A stretch of 64,000 nt of DNA, from positions 21,651 to 85,650 of IMG/VR virus record IMGVR_UViG_3300025011_000030. One strand, written 5' to 3'. Position numbers and translations under genes: made by a program. Shown in pieces: positions 659-56,874 of this stretch; the stretch's first letter is position 1, and the number at the start of each line of letters is the position of its first letter. This stretch comes from a virus. Below the pieces are notes generated by a model. The model was given only the letters and a program-made list of their open reading frames with translations, was not told the origin of the DNA and did no database searches.

Positions 659-886
659 ATGAGCGAAGTATGTACAGCATGTCACCGTAAACTCAAAGAT
701 CCGGAGAGTATTGCTCGCGGTATGGGCCCTGTTTGTTACCAGAAATTCGTGGGTAGCCCTATTCGGTTAACTATTAAACAGTTAGATCCCGAACAGGTGC
801 CGGCGGTGTTTACGTCAAAGATTTTGCCTGAAGATTTACCGTTGATTCGCTTATGCCGGTTATTACAAGATAAATTTGGAGGTTGA
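659..886 (+). CDS. DUF6011-like small zinc-binding protein
   Basis: 75 residues. The N-terminus has CxxCHRKLKDPESIARGMGPVC, split here as a CxxC pair, a PESI segment and a GPVC motif, the signature I associate with DUF6011 proteins common in phages. The ATG at 659 is preferred over TTG at 650 because AAAGGAG lies 10 bases before it. It starts 2 bases after the preceding stop. Role unknown, probably nucleic-acid or protein binding through zinc. Confidence 0.6.
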   Translation: MSEVCTACHRKLKDPESIARGMGPVCYQKFVGSPIRLTIKQLDPEQVPAVFTSKILPEDLPLIRLCRLLQDKFGG

Positions 887-890
887 TATT

Positions 891-1976
891 TTGATATCAT
901 TAGCTTTGAAATACCGTCCAAAAACTTTTGAGGATGTAGTGGGTCAGGAAAACACTATTAAAATACTAATGAACCAGCTGCAGAACAAAGATACTCGTCA
1001 AGGTTATTTATTCACAGGTTCTGCCGGGACTGGAAAAACCACGGTGGCCAGAATATTTGCCAACGCTATCAACGAGGGTAAAGGTTCACCTATTGAGCTA
1101 GATGCTGCAAGTAATAACGGTGTAAACGAAGTAAGAGAACTCCGTGAAAACTGTAAGTTTAAGCCCATTGACAGCCCATATAAAGTTTATATTATTGACG
1201 AAGTTCACATGTTATCAACAGGTGCATTTAATGCCTTGTTAAAAACATTGGAAGAGCCTCCTGCTCATGCCGTGTTTATTTTATGCACTACAGACCCGCA
1301 GAAAATACCGGCAACTATCATCAGCAGGACTCAACGATTTGGTTTTAAGAGAATACCCACCGAACAAGTGACTGCACGACTTCGTTATATTTTGGATGTT
1401 GAATCTGTTGGTTGTGTAAAGTGCCCAAAAACTGAAGAGTATCATGCTACTTGTTTAGAGTGCGAAGAGCCTGATATTTACTATGTTGAACTTGATGCGA
1501 TTGAGTTTATTGCTAAGTTAGCTAACGGAGGTATGCGAGATGCTATAAGTCTTATGGATACCTGCCTTTCCTACAAGAACAGGCTGTTGGTCAACGATGT
1601 ATCTGAAATTTTAGGTACGGCTAACTATACTGATTGCATAGATCTTTTATACAACTTGAACGATCGGGAAGTTAATACAGTTATTGAAATGATCGAAGAC
1701 CTGTATCAGGAAGGTAAGGATCTTAAGTTATTTGTTAAGACAATGACTGACTTCCTGTTAGACTATCAAAAGTATGTGCTATTTAATGGTTTGCAATATT
1801 GTACAATACCGTCAATGTATGTACAGGATCTTGAACGGTTACGGGATGTTTTGTCCAATGATTTTCTGCAAAATACTTTCAAATCGTTTGTTAAGTTAGT
1901 ACAAACGGTTAAATACGAAAGTGATCCTAAAATGTTGATTGAATGCGAGCTGTTACTACTTTGTAACGCCGGCTAG
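891..1976 (+). CDS. dnaX: DNA polymerase III gamma/tau-like clamp loader ATPase
   Basis: 361 residues. It opens with the DnaX hallmark KYRPKTFEDVVGQ, then Walker A GSAGTGKT (about residues 43-50), Walker B IIDEVHM, an SRC-like segment ISRTQRF, and the lid helix NGGMRDAISLMD. It would load the sliding clamp onto DNA with the two downstream gene products. The usual zinc module between Walker A and B is missing; four cysteines sit instead in an insert near residues 180-195. No tau C-terminal extension is visible. Start TTG at 891, with GGAGG 8 bases upstream. First of three consecutive clamp-loader genes. Confidence 0.9.
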   Translation: MISLALKYRPKTFEDVVGQENTIKILMNQLQNKDTRQGYLFTGSAGTGKTTVARIFANAINEGKGSPIELDAASNNGVNEVRELRENCKFKPIDSPYKVYIIDEVHMLSTGAFNALLKTLEEPPAHAVFILCTTDPQKIPATIISRTQRFGFKRIPTEQVTARLRYILDVESVGCVKCPKTEEYHATCLECEEPDIYYVELDAIEFIAKLANGGMRDAISLMDTCLSYKNRLLVNDVSEILGTANYTDCIDLLYNLNDREVNTVIEMIEDLYQEGKDLKLFVKTMTDFLLDYQKYVLFNGLQYCTIPSMYVQDLERLRDVLSNDFLQNTFKSFVKLVQTVKYESDPKMLIECELLLLCNAG

Positions 1977-1993
1977 ACTGCGAGGTGAAATTG

Positions 1994-2785
1994 TTGATAG
2001 GACAGAAAAAATTATTAGATCATTTACGTTCGTTAATTGAGCATACAGGTATGCCGGCACTATTAATATTAACAGGGCCTAAAGGTCAGGGTAAATACAC
2101 ATTAGCCAAAGAAGTCGCAGCATTATTTGATGCAGATGTATACGAGCCGGAAGCACTGAAAGTTGACGACATAAGAGCTTTAATTGAAGATACGTTTACG
2201 GTTAACCGACGGAAGATTTACATTTTACGCGATGCTCACGAAATGACGGTTCAGGCTCAAAACGCTCTACTTAAAACAGCTGAAGAGCCGCCGGTCAACT
2301 GTACTATAATAATGACGGTGAGTTTAGTCACTAAAATATTACCTACTATTTATTCCAGGTCGGTTCAGCTGAGTTTGGACTTGTATTCAAAAGAGGAACT
2401 GAAACAGTTTACGGATAACGAGGTATTGTTAACCGTATGCAGTAACCCTGGACAAATAAAGGAATTCCTAGAAATAGATTTCGTTGCGATGTTCGACAAT
2501 TGCCTGAAGATACTAAAGAGTGTGGGTAAAGTCACTCATGCAAATACTTTTAACATTTTAAAGTTTGTTGATGTTGAAAAATTGCATTTGTTTATGCTGG
2601 TACTTAAACATATCTATGCAGCTCAGTTACCTTTAGTAGACAAAAGTAAAGCTCCTTTTTTAGCTAAGAGCATTGAAATACTGCACAGGTATTCAGCTTT
2701 ATTAACTAATAAGTCTATCAATAAGAATCATGCTTTAGAAATGATGTTTATTGATCTTAAGGAGGCTGAATACATTGGAATTTAA
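1994..2785 (+). CDS. holB: DNA polymerase III delta'-like clamp loader subunit
   Basis: About 263 residues. AAA+ protein with a P-loop GPKGQGKYT, a degenerate Walker B LRDAHEM, and the QNALLKTAEEPP and YSRS segments diagnostic of delta'/gamma proteins. It is the expected stator of the clamp loader next to the dnaX-like gene. TTG at 1994 is chosen because GAGGTG (1982-1987) then has normal spacing; GTG 1985 and TTG 1991 are alternatives. The end overlaps the delta gene by 11 bases, indicating coupling. Confidence 0.82.
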   Translation: MIGQKKLLDHLRSLIEHTGMPALLILTGPKGQGKYTLAKEVAALFDADVYEPEALKVDDIRALIEDTFTVNRRKIYILRDAHEMTVQAQNALLKTAEEPPVNCTIIMTVSLVTKILPTIYSRSVQLSLDLYSKEELKQFTDNEVLLTVCSNPGQIKEFLEIDFVAMFDNCLKILKSVGKVTHANTFNILKFVDVEKLHLFMLVLKHIYAAQLPLVDKSKAPFLAKSIEILHRYSALLTNKSINKNHALEMMFIDLKEAEYIGI

Positions 2786-3680
2786 GCAGCTGAAAAAAGA
2801 ACTTGATTCTGGTAAGGTTCGACCTTTTTACATTTTCACAGGTGAAGAAAAGGAAGTACTTAGGAAGTACATTAAGCGCATAAGTCCCGATGTACAGACA
2901 GCTCAGTCCTTAGCCAGTATTGCCGGTAAGTTAAGCAGTCGCGGCCTGTTTGCCCGTAAACAGACTTTCGTTATACATAACGATAAAGAGGCCGTCAAGG
3001 TTGAGTTGAGCACGTTATTGAAGCTCATAGGTAACAATACGGTAATACTTGTGTACGACAGTATTGACGGACGAATTAAGTTTTTCAAAGAAGCTAAGGA
3101 CTATATCACCGAGTTTAAAAAGTTCACCGAAGCTCAATTAGCTGCAACGGTTAAACGTCTTTTAGGAACAGATGTAGAACCTAAAATATCTTTGATGTTG
3201 AGTTTGTACTGTGGTAACGATGTCGCCCGGTTAGAACTTGAATGTCATAAATTAAGAAGCTTAGGGTTACCTATAACCGAACAGTTAGTTGACGAGTTAG
3301 TGATACCGCCGGTCGAAGACGAGATTTTTAAAATGACCGAAAGTATTGCTAAAAAGGACGCCGTTATGGCTTGGTGCTTATACGATAACCTTCGGCAGTT
3401 GAAGGAAAGTCCTATTAAAATGATTAGTATACTCTATACCAAGTTTCGCGAAATATTTTTGGTACAGAGTATGCTTGACAGGGAAAATACAGAGGTATGC
3501 TCTAAGACAGGGTTGGTTTTTTGGCAGGTTAATAAAGCCCGTGAGTTAGCTAACAGGTTCAGCCTGACTGAGCTACTAAGGCACTTAAAATCCATTCAAA
3601 AAGCCGAGGTAGATATAAAGACAGGTCGTATTGAGGATATAGTTGCTTGGGAAAGCTTGTTGCTTAGCATTCTAAAATAA
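2775..3680 (+). CDS. holA: DNA polymerase III delta-like clamp loader subunit
   Basis: 301 residues. The N-terminus (FKQLKKELDSGKVRPFYIFTGEE) and the overall layout match HolA: an AAA+ fold without a working P-loop, a middle DEIFKMTESIAKKD helix, and a C-terminal helical collar domain. It would open the clamp. TTG at 2775 lies 9 bases after AAGGAGG. It is the third adjacent clamp-loader gene. Recognition is by family pattern, since delta subunits diverge strongly. Confidence 0.75.
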   Translation: MEFKQLKKELDSGKVRPFYIFTGEEKEVLRKYIKRISPDVQTAQSLASIAGKLSSRGLFARKQTFVIHNDKEAVKVELSTLLKLIGNNTVILVYDSIDGRIKFFKEAKDYITEFKKFTEAQLAATVKRLLGTDVEPKISLMLSLYCGNDVARLELECHKLRSLGLPITEQLVDELVIPPVEDEIFKMTESIAKKDAVMAWCLYDNLRQLKESPIKMISILYTKFREIFLVQSMLDRENTEVCSKTGLVFWQVNKARELANRFSLTELLRHLKSIQKAEVDIKTGRIEDIVAWESLLLSILK

Positions 3681-51653: not shown

Positions 51654-51680
51654 AGCCCACTAATAATGTGGGCTTTTTTA
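51654..51680 (+). terminator. Rho-independent terminator
   Basis: AGCCCAC, loop TAATAAT, GTGGGCT, then six T. Confidence 0.9.
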
Positions 51681-51773: not shown

Positions 51774-52121
51774 ATGGCCGGCATGAAAGAAAAGCTGACA
51801 GTTGTGTCTATACGATTGTATCCTAGTCAAGTTGTTTGGGTAAAAGAACGGTCTGAATTAAGTAGTTACGTTAGGGAGTTAATTGAACAGGAAATCACCA
51901 GTTTTTGCACTAAACCAGAACCTAATAAAACTCTAATACCTGTAGTGCCGAAAGTTAAAACTGTTAAGACCGTATATAAGGTGATGGATGAAATATGTCA
52001 TCTTCCGGCACTATTCAACAATCAGCTACCAACCGAACCAGCTACTCCAGTTGAACCCGCTATACCCAAAAAAGCTGTTTGGGTATTTCCTGAACCTATT
52101 AAACCAAAGGAGGTCGGTTAA
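51774..52121 (+). CDS. Ribbon-helix-helix-like protein with Pro-rich tail
   Basis: 115 residues. TVVSIRLYPSQVVWVKER then SSYVRELIEQEI fits a ribbon-helix-helix DNA-binding unit; the remainder is rich in Pro, Val and Lys and probably disordered. ATG after GGAGGTCAA. May regulate the membrane/ATPase genes that follow, as in plasmid accessory regulators (inference). Confidence 0.55.
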   Translation: MAGMKEKLTVVSIRLYPSQVVWVKERSELSSYVRELIEQEITSFCTKPEPNKTLIPVVPKVKTVKTVYKVMDEICHLPALFNNQLPTEPATPVEPAIPKKAVWVFPEPIKPKEVG

Positions 52122-52250
52122 ATGTTTGTTGAGTTTTCACTTGTTCAAACTGTTCAGAATATTGCATGGTTAACTGGAGTTATATTGTCTGGGTACGGTA
52201 TAGCCGAATTATTGATTTCAGGGTTAGAGAGTTATATAAAGAGTCGGTAA
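52122..52250 (+). CDS. Small membrane protein (42 aa)
   Basis: ATG directly abutting the preceding stop; AAAGGAGG upstream. One span (IAWLTGVILSGYGIAELLI). First of three small membrane proteins before the large ATPase. Confidence 0.55.
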   Translation: MFVEFSLVQTVQNIAWLTGVILSGYGIAELLISGLESYIKSR

Positions 52251-52388
52251 GTTATTTCATAAATGACCAAACTACCAACCCAAAGCCTATAACGATTTTA
52301 ATTCCAGCAGCTAATGGAGGCATCTACTTCACCTTCCTTATTTTTTTTGTTATTGTATAGTATTAACCAAGAAAGGGTGATTATATAC

Positions 52389-52697
52389 GTGACGAAATTT
52401 AAAAAATTTAACTCTTTTTTATTAGCTATTTATTATACACTTCTTCCGTATACTGTTCAGGCGTCAGCCGGTTTAGATGGAGCTTCACGGCTAATTGATA
52501 AGCTCCAATCGGCTGCCCTGTGGTTTGGTTTAGCTTTAGGTATTTGGGGAATATATGAATGGATGATGGGCTCGCCGGGTGGGTTAGATAGGTTCAAACG
52601 GGCCGTACTTGGCTATGTTGCCATACTGTTGATGCCGTTATTGTTTTTTGAGCTTCGGGACTCGTTTAGTATAAAAACATTTCGCGGTAATAAGTAG
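52389..52697 (+). CDS. Membrane protein, pilin- or VirB2-like layout
   Basis: 102 residues. N-terminal hydrophobic segment ending TVQASAG, a possible cleavage site, then two spans (ALWFGLALGIWGIYEWM and AVLGYVAILLMPLLFF). Size and layout recall VirB2/TrbC-type pilins but no sequence signature confirms this. GTG after AAGGGTGA. Confidence 0.5.
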   Translation: MTKFKKFNSFLLAIYYTLLPYTVQASAGLDGASRLIDKLQSAALWFGLALGIWGIYEWMMGSPGGLDRFKRAVLGYVAILLMPLLFFELRDSFSIKTFRGNK

Positions 52698-52705
52698 GTG
52701 ATAAC

Positions 52706-53008
52706 ATGTTTAAAGGGCTATTTGAAAAGGTAAATACGTGGTTTACGGGCAAGGTAGACGCAGCCGTTAACAATGCTGTAAACAAAACAAGTCAGGCCGT
52801 TACTGACAAAGCTGCTGAGATAGCTACGAGTAAGGTTGAGACTTTGTGGGATTGGGTTGTTCATTTTGTCGTGACCGGAGAATCGGTTCTAACCATTATC
52901 ACGATTGTATTCATACTTTTATGGATGTTGGGTATGGATAGATTTGGTATGTATGCAAAATGGCTTTTCGGTATTTACTTCCTAATTTGGGTGGTGATAT
53001 CAGCTTGA
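52706..53008 (+). CDS. Membrane protein with amphipathic N-terminus
   Basis: 100 residues. A long amphipathic helix (VDAAVNNAVNKTSQAVTDKA) precedes two spans (SVLTIITIVFILLWML and WLFGIYFLIWVVI). The stop overlaps the start of the ATPase gene, so the two are likely made together. Confidence 0.6.
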   Translation: MFKGLFEKVNTWFTGKVDAAVNNAVNKTSQAVTDKAAEIATSKVETLWDWVVHFVVTGESVLTIITIVFILLWMLGMDRFGMYAKWLFGIYFLIWVVISA

Positions 53009-55665
53009 TTAAGTCGAAGTTAATTTCAACAACAAAAAAGTTTTTCAACCTTGTTTCCGACGACTACATTATCTACCAACTCAAACCAGATACTTCGGTG
53101 CGTAACCAGCGCACTGAAGATATCACAAAGATAGTTGCCGGCCTATTTAAAATTCCAAATCAACGTATTAAAATCAAACCTTTTAAATTTTTCAAAAAAG
53201 GTCACTCCTTTATAACGGTACAGCGACAAGATCAAATATCCTTTAAAGCCGTATTTACCCAAGGTTCTATTACTTTTTATTTGGTAATACCTAAGGATAA
53301 AAAGAACGAAATAATTCGTAAATGTGAGGCTATTTGGCCACATGCGACTATACTGCCCGTGACGACTGACGTATTACCTACTTTTGAACTAACTAAAACC
53401 ATGGCTGCGAGTATGTATTATCGCAAACACGATATATTTTCTATGATTTGCGATAACCGGGATAACTTACCGTTACCTTCGTTACTAACCAGTATACGGG
53501 ATTTAGAAGTTGAAACGGATAAGGCCGTTTTAGATGTACTGTTTATACCTACCAACCGAAGAGACTGGCAACGTAAAGCTGAAGGTGCTCTGACTAAATT
53601 AGAAAAAGGAACCATACCCACTAGAACAGGGCAGCAATTACCTGAAAAACTATTTGAAATAGTTAATTCAATTATGAACAGCATTCGTTACGGGTTACTT
53701 GATTTGACTGCCATGAGTAACGAGGATAAAAAGGCTATTCAACAAATGAAAGCAGAAGAAACTCGTTGGTCGGAAGGTCGTAAACTGTATGACGAAATGT
53801 TACCTGAATCAAAGAAAAAAGTTGGCGAGGATGTTTTAAATACGTGGGTAAGAGTTGCAGCACAAAGCAATGACCCTTTGAAGGCCCAACGCATAGTTCG
53901 TACGATGGTTAACGCTTGGAAAGATATTGCCGGAGATAACGAGTTTGACCGTCAGGATATTCCTCGTCGTTATGTATTGAAATTCTTGGCTCAAATAACA
54001 CATAATCAACCGACTCCGGGAAAACGATTGTGCAACGTACTTAGTGTAAAGGAAGCTAGTAAGTTGATTCAGTTACCTGGTTACGAGCTACAGCAGCAAT
54101 TCCCGGAAATTCAGGCCATACGAGTCAAAGAAGTAACTATCCCTAACGAACTGTTCGTAGATAAAGGTATTCGCATTGGGTACGTGACTGAAAAGGGTAG
54201 TACTAAGTTGGTTCGCATACCTGTTACACCGAATTCCAGTATATCAACGAGTGCTATTTACGACGCCTTATGTACACATAGCTTCGGTCAAGGTAAACAA
54301 GGTACAGGAAAAACCGAGGGTTTCGGTTCTACTTGGTGCCACGACATGGTAGTAAACGGCTTTACAGCTATTATAATTGATACAGCCGACGGTCAAATGA
54401 TTCGTGATTTTGAAGACAGTTTACCTGAGGACTTTCCAGAACAGAAAATCATTCATCTTAACTGCGATAACAAATCGTACCCAGTATCTTTAAATTGGAG
54501 TGACGTATTGGGCAGGGAGTTTAAGTGCACAAAAGGTGACCAAGAGCTACAAGCTGTAGAAATTCAAGAACGTATTACAGCCCGTTTTATTGAGTTTATC
54601 AACGGCGAAGCTACTACCGAATTTTCGGATCTAATGCGACAGTTCTTAGTTAGTGCCACAAAGGCAGCAACTACTCGAAAAAACTGGTCGTTTCAGGATA
54701 TTGATTTAGTACTTGTATCCCCGTCTTTTAGAGAGGAACTATTAAACAGTGCTAAGATACAGAATATGCCGGAAGTAGCCGAGGACTTGAAAAGGTTACA
54801 GGTCATGGCCGAAAAAGGTAGTGCGAGTAACACCGTTGATGGTATTATTTCTAGAATACGGATGTTAAGTAACAACAAGCTATTGGCGAACATGTTTTAT
54901 CAGCCGGCAAAACTCAACTCACGAGGAAAACCTATTCTCGATTTTAGAAAATACATGGACAATAAGCCCACAGGTGACCCTGCTTTCGATAAGTACGGTT
55001 ATGTCGTAACTATTCAAGCTAGTTACGATGCGTGGCAAGAAAATCAACCTCTTATATTAGGTTTCTTTGAAGATAAAATTAACTTCAATGTATTCAGTCG
55101 TATTGAGCTAGAACAAAAAGACAGAGTTCCGGTCATTAAATGGATTGATGAGCCACATAAAGTTATTAACTCGGTAGCCAAATACTATAAGGGAAGTAAC
55201 GTAGAGTTCCGGAAGTATAGGTGCAAGAATTTATTCACCGGGCACAGTATTGAACAAATGGGAGATGCAGCCAACAGCTTACTTGACGGCGGAGCTCAAA
55301 TAACCAGTTATAAAACAGAACGTTTAAGTGAACTTGAAAGGTTTGCTCACTTGTTTGACCCGTACACCGACGCTAAAGAGCTATACGCCGGACTTCCAGA
55401 TAAATGGGTAGCTGTTAATAAAGTAAGGTTACCGAGCGGAGCTAACTGCCCAGCATTTATAGCTAGGATGATGCCACCACCGAAAAAAGTTAAAGACCGT
55501 TCCTCACGTCGGGAAGACTGTTCTAAGCAGTTTGGTCGACCTTGGAAAGAGGTAACTAAGGAGATACTCGATCGTAAACTACATTATCAAAAATTGGACG
55601 CCCAATGGTATGAACAAAAAGCTGAGGAAAAAGAAGCTGAAAAACAAGCTAAAAAAGCCAAGTAG
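53005..55665 (+). CDS. VirD4/HerA-like ATPase (DNA translocase)
   Basis: 886 residues. Residues ~1-410 are an unassigned N-terminal region. Then HSFGQGKQGTGKT (Walker A, near residue 430), FTAIIIDTADG, and VPVIKWIDEPHKVI (Walker B DE), the order of the VirD4/TraG/HerA-FtsK superfamily. A late FTGHSIEQMG segment fits sensor/arginine-finger regions. C-terminus is lysine-glutamate rich. TTG 53005. Likely a hexameric, membrane-associated DNA pump of the small membrane-protein module. Confidence 0.75.
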   Translation: MIKSKLISTTKKFFNLVSDDYIIYQLKPDTSVRNQRTEDITKIVAGLFKIPNQRIKIKPFKFFKKGHSFITVQRQDQISFKAVFTQGSITFYLVIPKDKKNEIIRKCEAIWPHATILPVTTDVLPTFELTKTMAASMYYRKHDIFSMICDNRDNLPLPSLLTSIRDLEVETDKAVLDVLFIPTNRRDWQRKAEGALTKLEKGTIPTRTGQQLPEKLFEIVNSIMNSIRYGLLDLTAMSNEDKKAIQQMKAEETRWSEGRKLYDEMLPESKKKVGEDVLNTWVRVAAQSNDPLKAQRIVRTMVNAWKDIAGDNEFDRQDIPRRYVLKFLAQITHNQPTPGKRLCNVLSVKEASKLIQLPGYELQQQFPEIQAIRVKEVTIPNELFVDKGIRIGYVTEKGSTKLVRIPVTPNSSISTSAIYDALCTHSFGQGKQGTGKTEGFGSTWCHDMVVNGFTAIIIDTADGQMIRDFEDSLPEDFPEQKIIHLNCDNKSYPVSLNWSDVLGREFKCTKGDQELQAVEIQERITARFIEFINGEATTEFSDLMRQFLVSATKAATTRKNWSFQDIDLVLVSPSFREELLNSAKIQNMPEVAEDLKRLQVMAEKGSASNTVDGIISRIRMLSNNKLLANMFYQPAKLNSRGKPILDFRKYMDNKPTGDPAFDKYGYVVTIQASYDAWQENQPLILGFFEDKINFNVFSRIELEQKDRVPVIKWIDEPHKVINSVAKYYKGSNVEFRKYRCKNLFTGHSIEQMGDAANSLLDGGAQITSYKTERLSELERFAHLFDPYTDAKELYAGLPDKWVAVNKVRLPSGANCPAFIARMMPPPKKVKDRSSRREDCSKQFGRPWKEVTKEILDRKLHYQKLDAQWYEQKAEEKEAEKQAKKAK

Positions 55666-56844: not shown

Positions 56845-56874
56845 AAAAACCAGTCTTATATGCTGGTTTTTTTT
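56845..56874 (+). terminator. Rho-independent terminator
   Basis: AAAACCAG pairs with CTGGTTTT around TCTTATATG, then more T. Confidence 0.85.

Follow-up and report, generated by a model that had tools for sequence, protein, structure and literature searches.

We have analysed a 64,000-nucleotide stretch of viral DNA (the window; bases 21651-85650 of the 85,650-base IMG/VR virus record IMGVR_UViG_3300025011_000030), and find that it carries a real and conserved gene module of type IV secretion system (T4SS) type, one that was sketched before for phage SPP1. The module lies at positions 51774-55665. It comprises genes for a ribbon-helix-helix (RHH) protein, for three small membrane proteins (one of 42 residues, and the two that we call A and B) and for an 886-residue ATPase, all present and tightly packed, as an earlier reading made from the letters alone (the sequence-only reading) had described. 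It recurs in numerous phages of spore-formers that are not related to one another. The products probably assemble into a small apparatus for passing DNA or protein across the cell envelope, with both substrate and direction putative. We regard the chances as evenly balanced that this is a reduced T4SS-derived translocation module which phages of spore-forming Bacilli have adopted.

The window ATPase matches phrog_5156, a family without assigned function, over its full length (E = 6e-134, residues 22-878). Single-sequence searches in Pfam, NCBIfam, PADLOC and the PDB gave nothing useful. No Pfam model was matched, including T4SS-DNA_transf and TrwB_AAD_bind at their cut-offs, and a scan of viral contigs with the single ATPase sequence found no relative. 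Profiles and fold alone were informative. An AlphaFold 2 (AF2) model built from a 21-row alignment has a predicted local distance difference test score (pLDDT) of 79.7. Its best PDB folds are R388 TrwK/VirB4 (1e-10) and TrwB/VirD4 (4e-7), followed by Cag-beta, with HerA far lower (1e-4). The phage-type ATPase family was also compared by hhalign with families gathered from Bacilli. It is homologous over its full length to more distant relatives of T4SS and integrative and conjugative element (ICE) type (4e-52), and the ranking is VirD4 (2e-13), then VirB4 (2e-7), then HerA (5e-5, probability 68%). The FtsK motor was not matched (probability 0.7%, E = 0.08). The Walker A motif is GKQGTGKT and the Walker B motif KWIDEPH; the lysine of the former and the glutamate of the latter are invariant in 13 diverged relatives. 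An N-terminal transmembrane (TM) segment is found in several of the distant T4SS-type relatives and in most VirD4 proteins, and in none of 43 phage-type ATPases, that of the window included.

By fold and profile the protein is of VirD4/VirB4 type, which bears out the conjugation-type ATPase proposed in the sequence-only reading. On the fold search, hhalign and the PADLOC search, the last of which matched none of the window proteins, the assignments to FtsK/SpoIIIE, a packaging ATPase or a known defence ATPase were dropped. The core of the protein has HerA and DptH as distant relatives, so that a packaging, repair or replication ATPase beside unrelated membrane genes might be considered. We find this extremely improbable. 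The fold and profile ranking favor VirD4/VirB4, the phage has a terminase of its own, and the linkage of A, B and the ATPase is kept over a divergence to ~20% identity. The ATPase has the conserved membrane partners that had been suggested for it.

Relatives of the ATPase were found by tblastn in 59 phage records, every one below 60% identity. The identity is 49% for Bacillus phage vB_BboS-125, and ~20-24% for SPO1 and its relatives, TP-84, GBK2, D6E and phage G. Plasmids of Aneurinibacillus and Alicyclobacillus carry relatives too. In the phage-like Aneurinibacillus plasmid pAT1 (L005 11989-13355) the ATPase relative (59% identical) is split over two frames, and this broken gene adjoins ParM and an Abi gene.

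Linkage was counted in 51 phage-type loci, which are not all independent, some being near-copies, and in 21 more distant loci. A gene of the A family lies directly ahead of the ATPase gene in 48 of the 51 phage-type loci, including those of SPO1, TP-84, GBK2, D6E and phage G, and in 2 of the 21 distant ones. In the window the A gene is directly upstream of the ATPase gene and the RHH gene further upstream, both window copies having been seeds of their models. The model of A was iterated, and we therefore applied a model made from the seeds only to phages outside its build. It matched at the expected position in the held-out phages LysYB1 (5e-19), Staley (2e-7) and MaeS (5e-6); a fourth match, PJN02, nearly duplicates a seed. 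The Terrisporobacter phage TPDSL_ph2 gave a weak match (0.001) with the iterated model only. Given the contrast of 48/51 with 2/21 and the predicted position in held-out phages, the arrangement of A and ATPase is far beyond chance.

The distant loci hold relatives of conjugative type. A Replic_Relax gene follows the ATPase in 15 of the 21, compared with 2 of the 51 phage-type loci. A FastTree tree separates the phage-type ATPases from those of T4SS type. SPO1 and the CQN-2 plasmid fall between the two groups, and these two loci have both A and Replic_Relax. The deep order of the tree is unsure because of long branches. Replic_Relax (PF13814) directly follows the ATPase as SPO1 gp27.3 (L004 6919-7743) and in L015 (8460-9341); by eye, gp27.3 resembles a winged helix joined to a PD-(D/E)XK nuclease.

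Protein A has a signal-type N-terminus ending TVQA/SAG, then a TM helix, a short net-basic loop and a second TM helix. Its counterparts share the basic N-terminus, the signal-like hydrophobic stretch ending near A-x-A and the two TM helices, and the loop between the helices is net positive in 42 of 47 family members. When the family was compared with Pfam, 16 of 40 members matched the TrbC/VIRB2 pilin (PF04956; best 6e-7) and 13 of 40 matched T4SS_pilin (PF18895; best 2e-6). Within the A family, gp150 of phage G exceeds the T4SS_pilin cut-off. Neither model was matched by any of six further small membrane proteins taken from loci of T4SS type. At the level of the family, sequence similarity thus places A among the VirB2/TrbC-like pilins, in agreement with the pilin-like layout noted earlier.

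Protein B has a weak match to TrbC (E = 0.04). The two C-terminal TM helices of the B family enclose a positive loop in 16 of 17 cases, and both ends of B are therefore predicted to lie outside, with the basic loop in the cytoplasm. In several relatives the N-terminal part is an M23 peptidase domain whose HxGxD and HxH motifs are intact. By the positive-inside rule this peptidase should be outside the cell, which would suit a machine passing through the wall. Fusions of M23 and B that have no signal peptide occur at L002 7012-7737, L006 7150-7794 and L010 4928-5575. B ends at its second TM helix where the ATPase begins, and it is attractive to see the two as a VirD4 split over two genes. We do not claim this, because VirD4 is N-in/C-in, whereas B is predicted to be N-out/C-out.

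The features of the unit are collected in Table 1. Strong ribosome sites (AAAGGAGGTC) precede the ATG codons of the RHH gene (51774) and of the 42-residue protein (52122), and AAAGGGTG lies just 5' of the GTG start of protein A at 52389. The TTG start of the ATPase at 53005 overlaps the stop codon of protein B (TTGA); an alternative open reading frame of 901 residues would begin at the ATG at 52960. SPO1 has three tiny TM proteins ahead of its ATPase, similar to the 42-residue protein. Terminator-like stems flank the unit at 51654-51674 and 56845-56871. These bracket both the ATPase gene and the gene for the K/E/A-rich protein, which therefore probably share a transcription unit, with a putative role for the repetitive protein in the system.

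Table 1. Genes of the T4SS-type unit and the gene that follows it (window positions)
Feature	Position	Strand	Remarks
RHH-type DNA-binding protein, 115 residues	51774..52121	+	Most phage-type loci have a relative ahead of the ATPase, whether or not ParM is present
42-residue protein, one TM helix	52122..52250	+	Strong ribosome site; no family assigned
Protein A, 102 residues, pre-pilin-like, VirB2/TrbC-like family	52389..52697	+	Signal-type N-terminus, two TM helices
Protein B, 100-residue membrane protein	52706..53008	+	Two C-terminal TM helices, basic loop
ATPase, 886 residues, VirD4/VirB4-type, phrog_5156	53005..55665	+	TTG start; no TM helices
K/E/A-rich repetitive protein, 356 residues	55766..56836	+	Matches no family

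Neither VirB4 (PF12846) nor VirB6/TrbL (PF04610) was found in the 85.6-kb record, which may be incomplete. The whole record also has no PF03432 relaxase, the one relaxase family searched for record-wide, and there was no relaxase among the ~38 open reading frames scanned with Pfam. Whole-record searches of 12 related records gave the same result for VirB4, TrbL and the PF03432 relaxase in 11. The module is therefore not a complete conjugation system. The sequence-only reading suggested that the element could spread by a transfer-like route as well as by virions; with none of these genes found in the record, inside the window or beyond it, ordinary conjugation by the element alone is unlikely.

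Phage G differs. It alone among the window record and the 12 related ones has a VirB4-like gene. At L009 996-7361, gp150 is T4SS_pilin-like, gp153 matches TrbL_4 (TrbL/VirB6-like), gp155 gives a VirB4/TraG P-loop match and gp156 is a coupling-type ATPase. By sequence matches this jumbo phage thus holds a VirB2-VirB4-VirB6-VirD4 set, a near-complete T4SS core and the fullest found here.

How might the reduced set work? The VirB2-like A and the two-TM B, with its basic loop in the cytoplasm and its N-terminus out, would make up the membrane part. The VirD4-like ATPase, having lost its N-terminal TM anchor, would dock on this A/B part and pump. The RHH protein might bind a site on the phage DNA and hand the DNA to the ATPase, and the likeliest substrate would be the DNA of the phage itself, which would pass through the membrane of an infected or carrier cell. 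That the module is a translocon for some substrate is an even call. That the substrate is DNA we propose tentatively, at somewhat less than even chances. It is unlikely, though conceivable, that a minimal T4SS-derived pump moves phage genomes from cell to cell or into the forespore by a route that needs no virion.

Several observations weigh against translocation. In most carriers a VirB6-like channel, VirB4 and a relaxase are all lacking, which would leave a translocon of smaller size than any characterised so far. There is no obvious iteron or oriT-like array around the RHH gene; direct repeats near the module were only Shine-Dalgarno-like or chance matches, with no oriT-like or parC-like iterons among them. 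The window protein A has no Pfam match of its own, its AF2 model is weak (pLDDT = 68), and a fold search with that model gave no PDB match and was uninformative. Lastly, the SPP1 counterpart of the ATPase, gp32, is non-essential (PMC6316719).

The module might instead act in exclusion of superinfecting phages or of other entering DNA. The literature that we searched held no functional experiment on it. Small membrane proteins are typical of exclusion, and the module has them. Made early, they could act with the ATPase to block or reverse the entry of competing phage or plasmid DNA. SPP1 gp31.1-gp32 belong to the early unit PE5, gp32 is dispensable, and its authors suggest exclusion as one role of such early genes (PMC6316719). 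Yet a full-length ATPase of DNA-pump type with invariant Walker motifs exceeds the needs of known exclusion proteins. Exclusion also leaves the conserved pairing with a DNA-binding RHH protein unexplained, and PADLOC matched none of the window proteins. We judge exclusion somewhat unlikely.

The RHH gene bears on another role, the segregation or membrane anchoring of DNA. Among the 42 phage-type loci with enough upstream sequence, RHH lies upstream of the ATPase in 30 and ParM in 14. A ParM/RHH partition set and a membrane-bound pump could position the DNA of a phage or a prophage-plasmid, for instance in the forespore of a sporulating cell, and the window phage has a plasmid-type RepA_N. However, the window record yielded no ParM, RHH is retained without ParM in 19 of 28 loci, and lytic phages keep the module. 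Segregation is decidedly unlikely, even though the carriers are almost solely phages of spore-formers, a restriction that may just mirror a shared gene pool.

That restriction is seen with SPO1. Its ATPase, encoded by gene 27.4, is found in 68 phage records, all with spore-former hosts except one listed as Microcystis. Relatives of its capsid occur in 634 records, of which 494 are phages of Staphylococcus (343), Enterococcus (69), Listeria (55) and Lactobacillus (27); none of the 68 ATPase records is among phages of these four genera. Such a distribution would suit a role linked to spores and, just as well, a gene pool confined to spore-former hosts. The Microcystis phage is MaeS (L184), whose ATPase and A resemble those of Bacillus phage Staley (Slashvirus) despite the cyanobacterial host listed for it. 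With phage-type and T4SS-type taken together, an ATPase relative at E <= 1e-10 occurs in 66 of 399 genomes belonging to the same class.

A place in the virion was considered as well. For TP-84, mass spectrometry of purified particles gave at least two peptides of the A protein, TP84_47, whereas the ATPase TP84_48 was not detected (PMC5889276). On infection, a particle-borne pilin-like protein might insert into the membrane, with the ATPase helping to pull DNA in. The ATPase would then have to be synthesised before entry is complete, the genes sit in the early/replication region away from the tail genes, and SPP1 gp32 is dispensable. A membrane protein can also co-purify with particles. A virion or entry factor is very improbable, and translocation by the module remains the reading that we prefer.

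The rest of the window agrees with a tailed phage, as had been stated, and includes terminase, portal, major head protein, tape measure and endolysin genes. The RepA_N replication protein proposed earlier is confirmed, and the phage also has DnaC-like and DnaB-like proteins. The secreted transglycosylase does match SLT transglycosylase, at a score that barely exceeds the Pfam cut-off. The replication set is unusually complete, with a Pol III-type clamp loader, beta clamp, PolA, RecA, Toprim primase and DnaB. The phage's own clamp loader (gamma/tau-like, delta-prime-like and delta) and beta clamp lie at 876-3680 and at L017 2925-4010.

Gene transfer by conjugation machines and gene transfer by tailed phages are usually regarded as distinct. 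With a conserved T4SS-derived set present in model phages (SPO1, TP-84, SPP1-like phages and phage G), its function is testable in laboratory strains of Bacillus subtilis, where the outcome could be a way for phage DNA to travel without virions, a new mechanism of exclusion, or passage of phages into spores. A likely family can now be given to a gene that ~70 phage records annotate as hypothetical, MsbA-like or virulence factor.

Calling the system undescribed, as the sequence-only reading did, is too strong. In 2018 a re-annotation of SPP1 proposed gp32 with gp31.1 and/or gp31.2 as a possible trans-membrane translocon, likened gp32 to TrwB, VirB4 and FtsK, and noted the synteny in GBK2 (PMC6316719). 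The order of gp31, gp31.1, gp31.2 and gp32 is like that in GBK2, with an RHH protein, two membrane proteins and an ATPase that has no TM helix (PMC6316719); we infer its mapping onto the module through GBK2. The SPP1 description did not recognise the first membrane protein as pilin-like, nor did it include the wider module or the links to ParM and M23.

The VirD4/TrwB coupling proteins share with the phage ATPase its fold, a RecA-like ATPase with an all-helical insertion, the Walker A and B motifs and the profile match at 2e-13. They differ in the N-terminal TM pair that most of them have and the 43 phage-type ATPases do not, and the phage element has neither a VirB channel nor a PF03432 relaxase. 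The monoderm conjugative T4SS and ICE of Bacilli, such as L120, have an ATPase homologous over the full length (hhalign 4e-52). In L120, the one distant locus scanned, VirB4 and TrbL/VirB6 lie beside the ATPase, unlike the window phage. The distant loci depart further from the phage-type module in the Replic_Relax gene described above and in that an A-type gene was not found in 19 of 21.

The archaeal Ced and Ted systems are small sets of VirB2 and an ATPase that are able to move DNA (PMC9905601). The module resembles them in being a small set of a VirB2-like pilin, a VirB4/HerA-like ATPase and small membrane proteins; they differ in having a VirB6-like channel (CedA/TedA) and a chromosomal location (PMC9905601). 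The sole homology comparison made was a weak match of a distant ATPase relative to CedD (E = 0.003). Set beside these systems, what is new here is the VirB2-like identity of A on family-level matches, the conservation of the module, the N-out topology predicted for B, the near-restriction to phages of spore-formers and the T4SS core in phage G.

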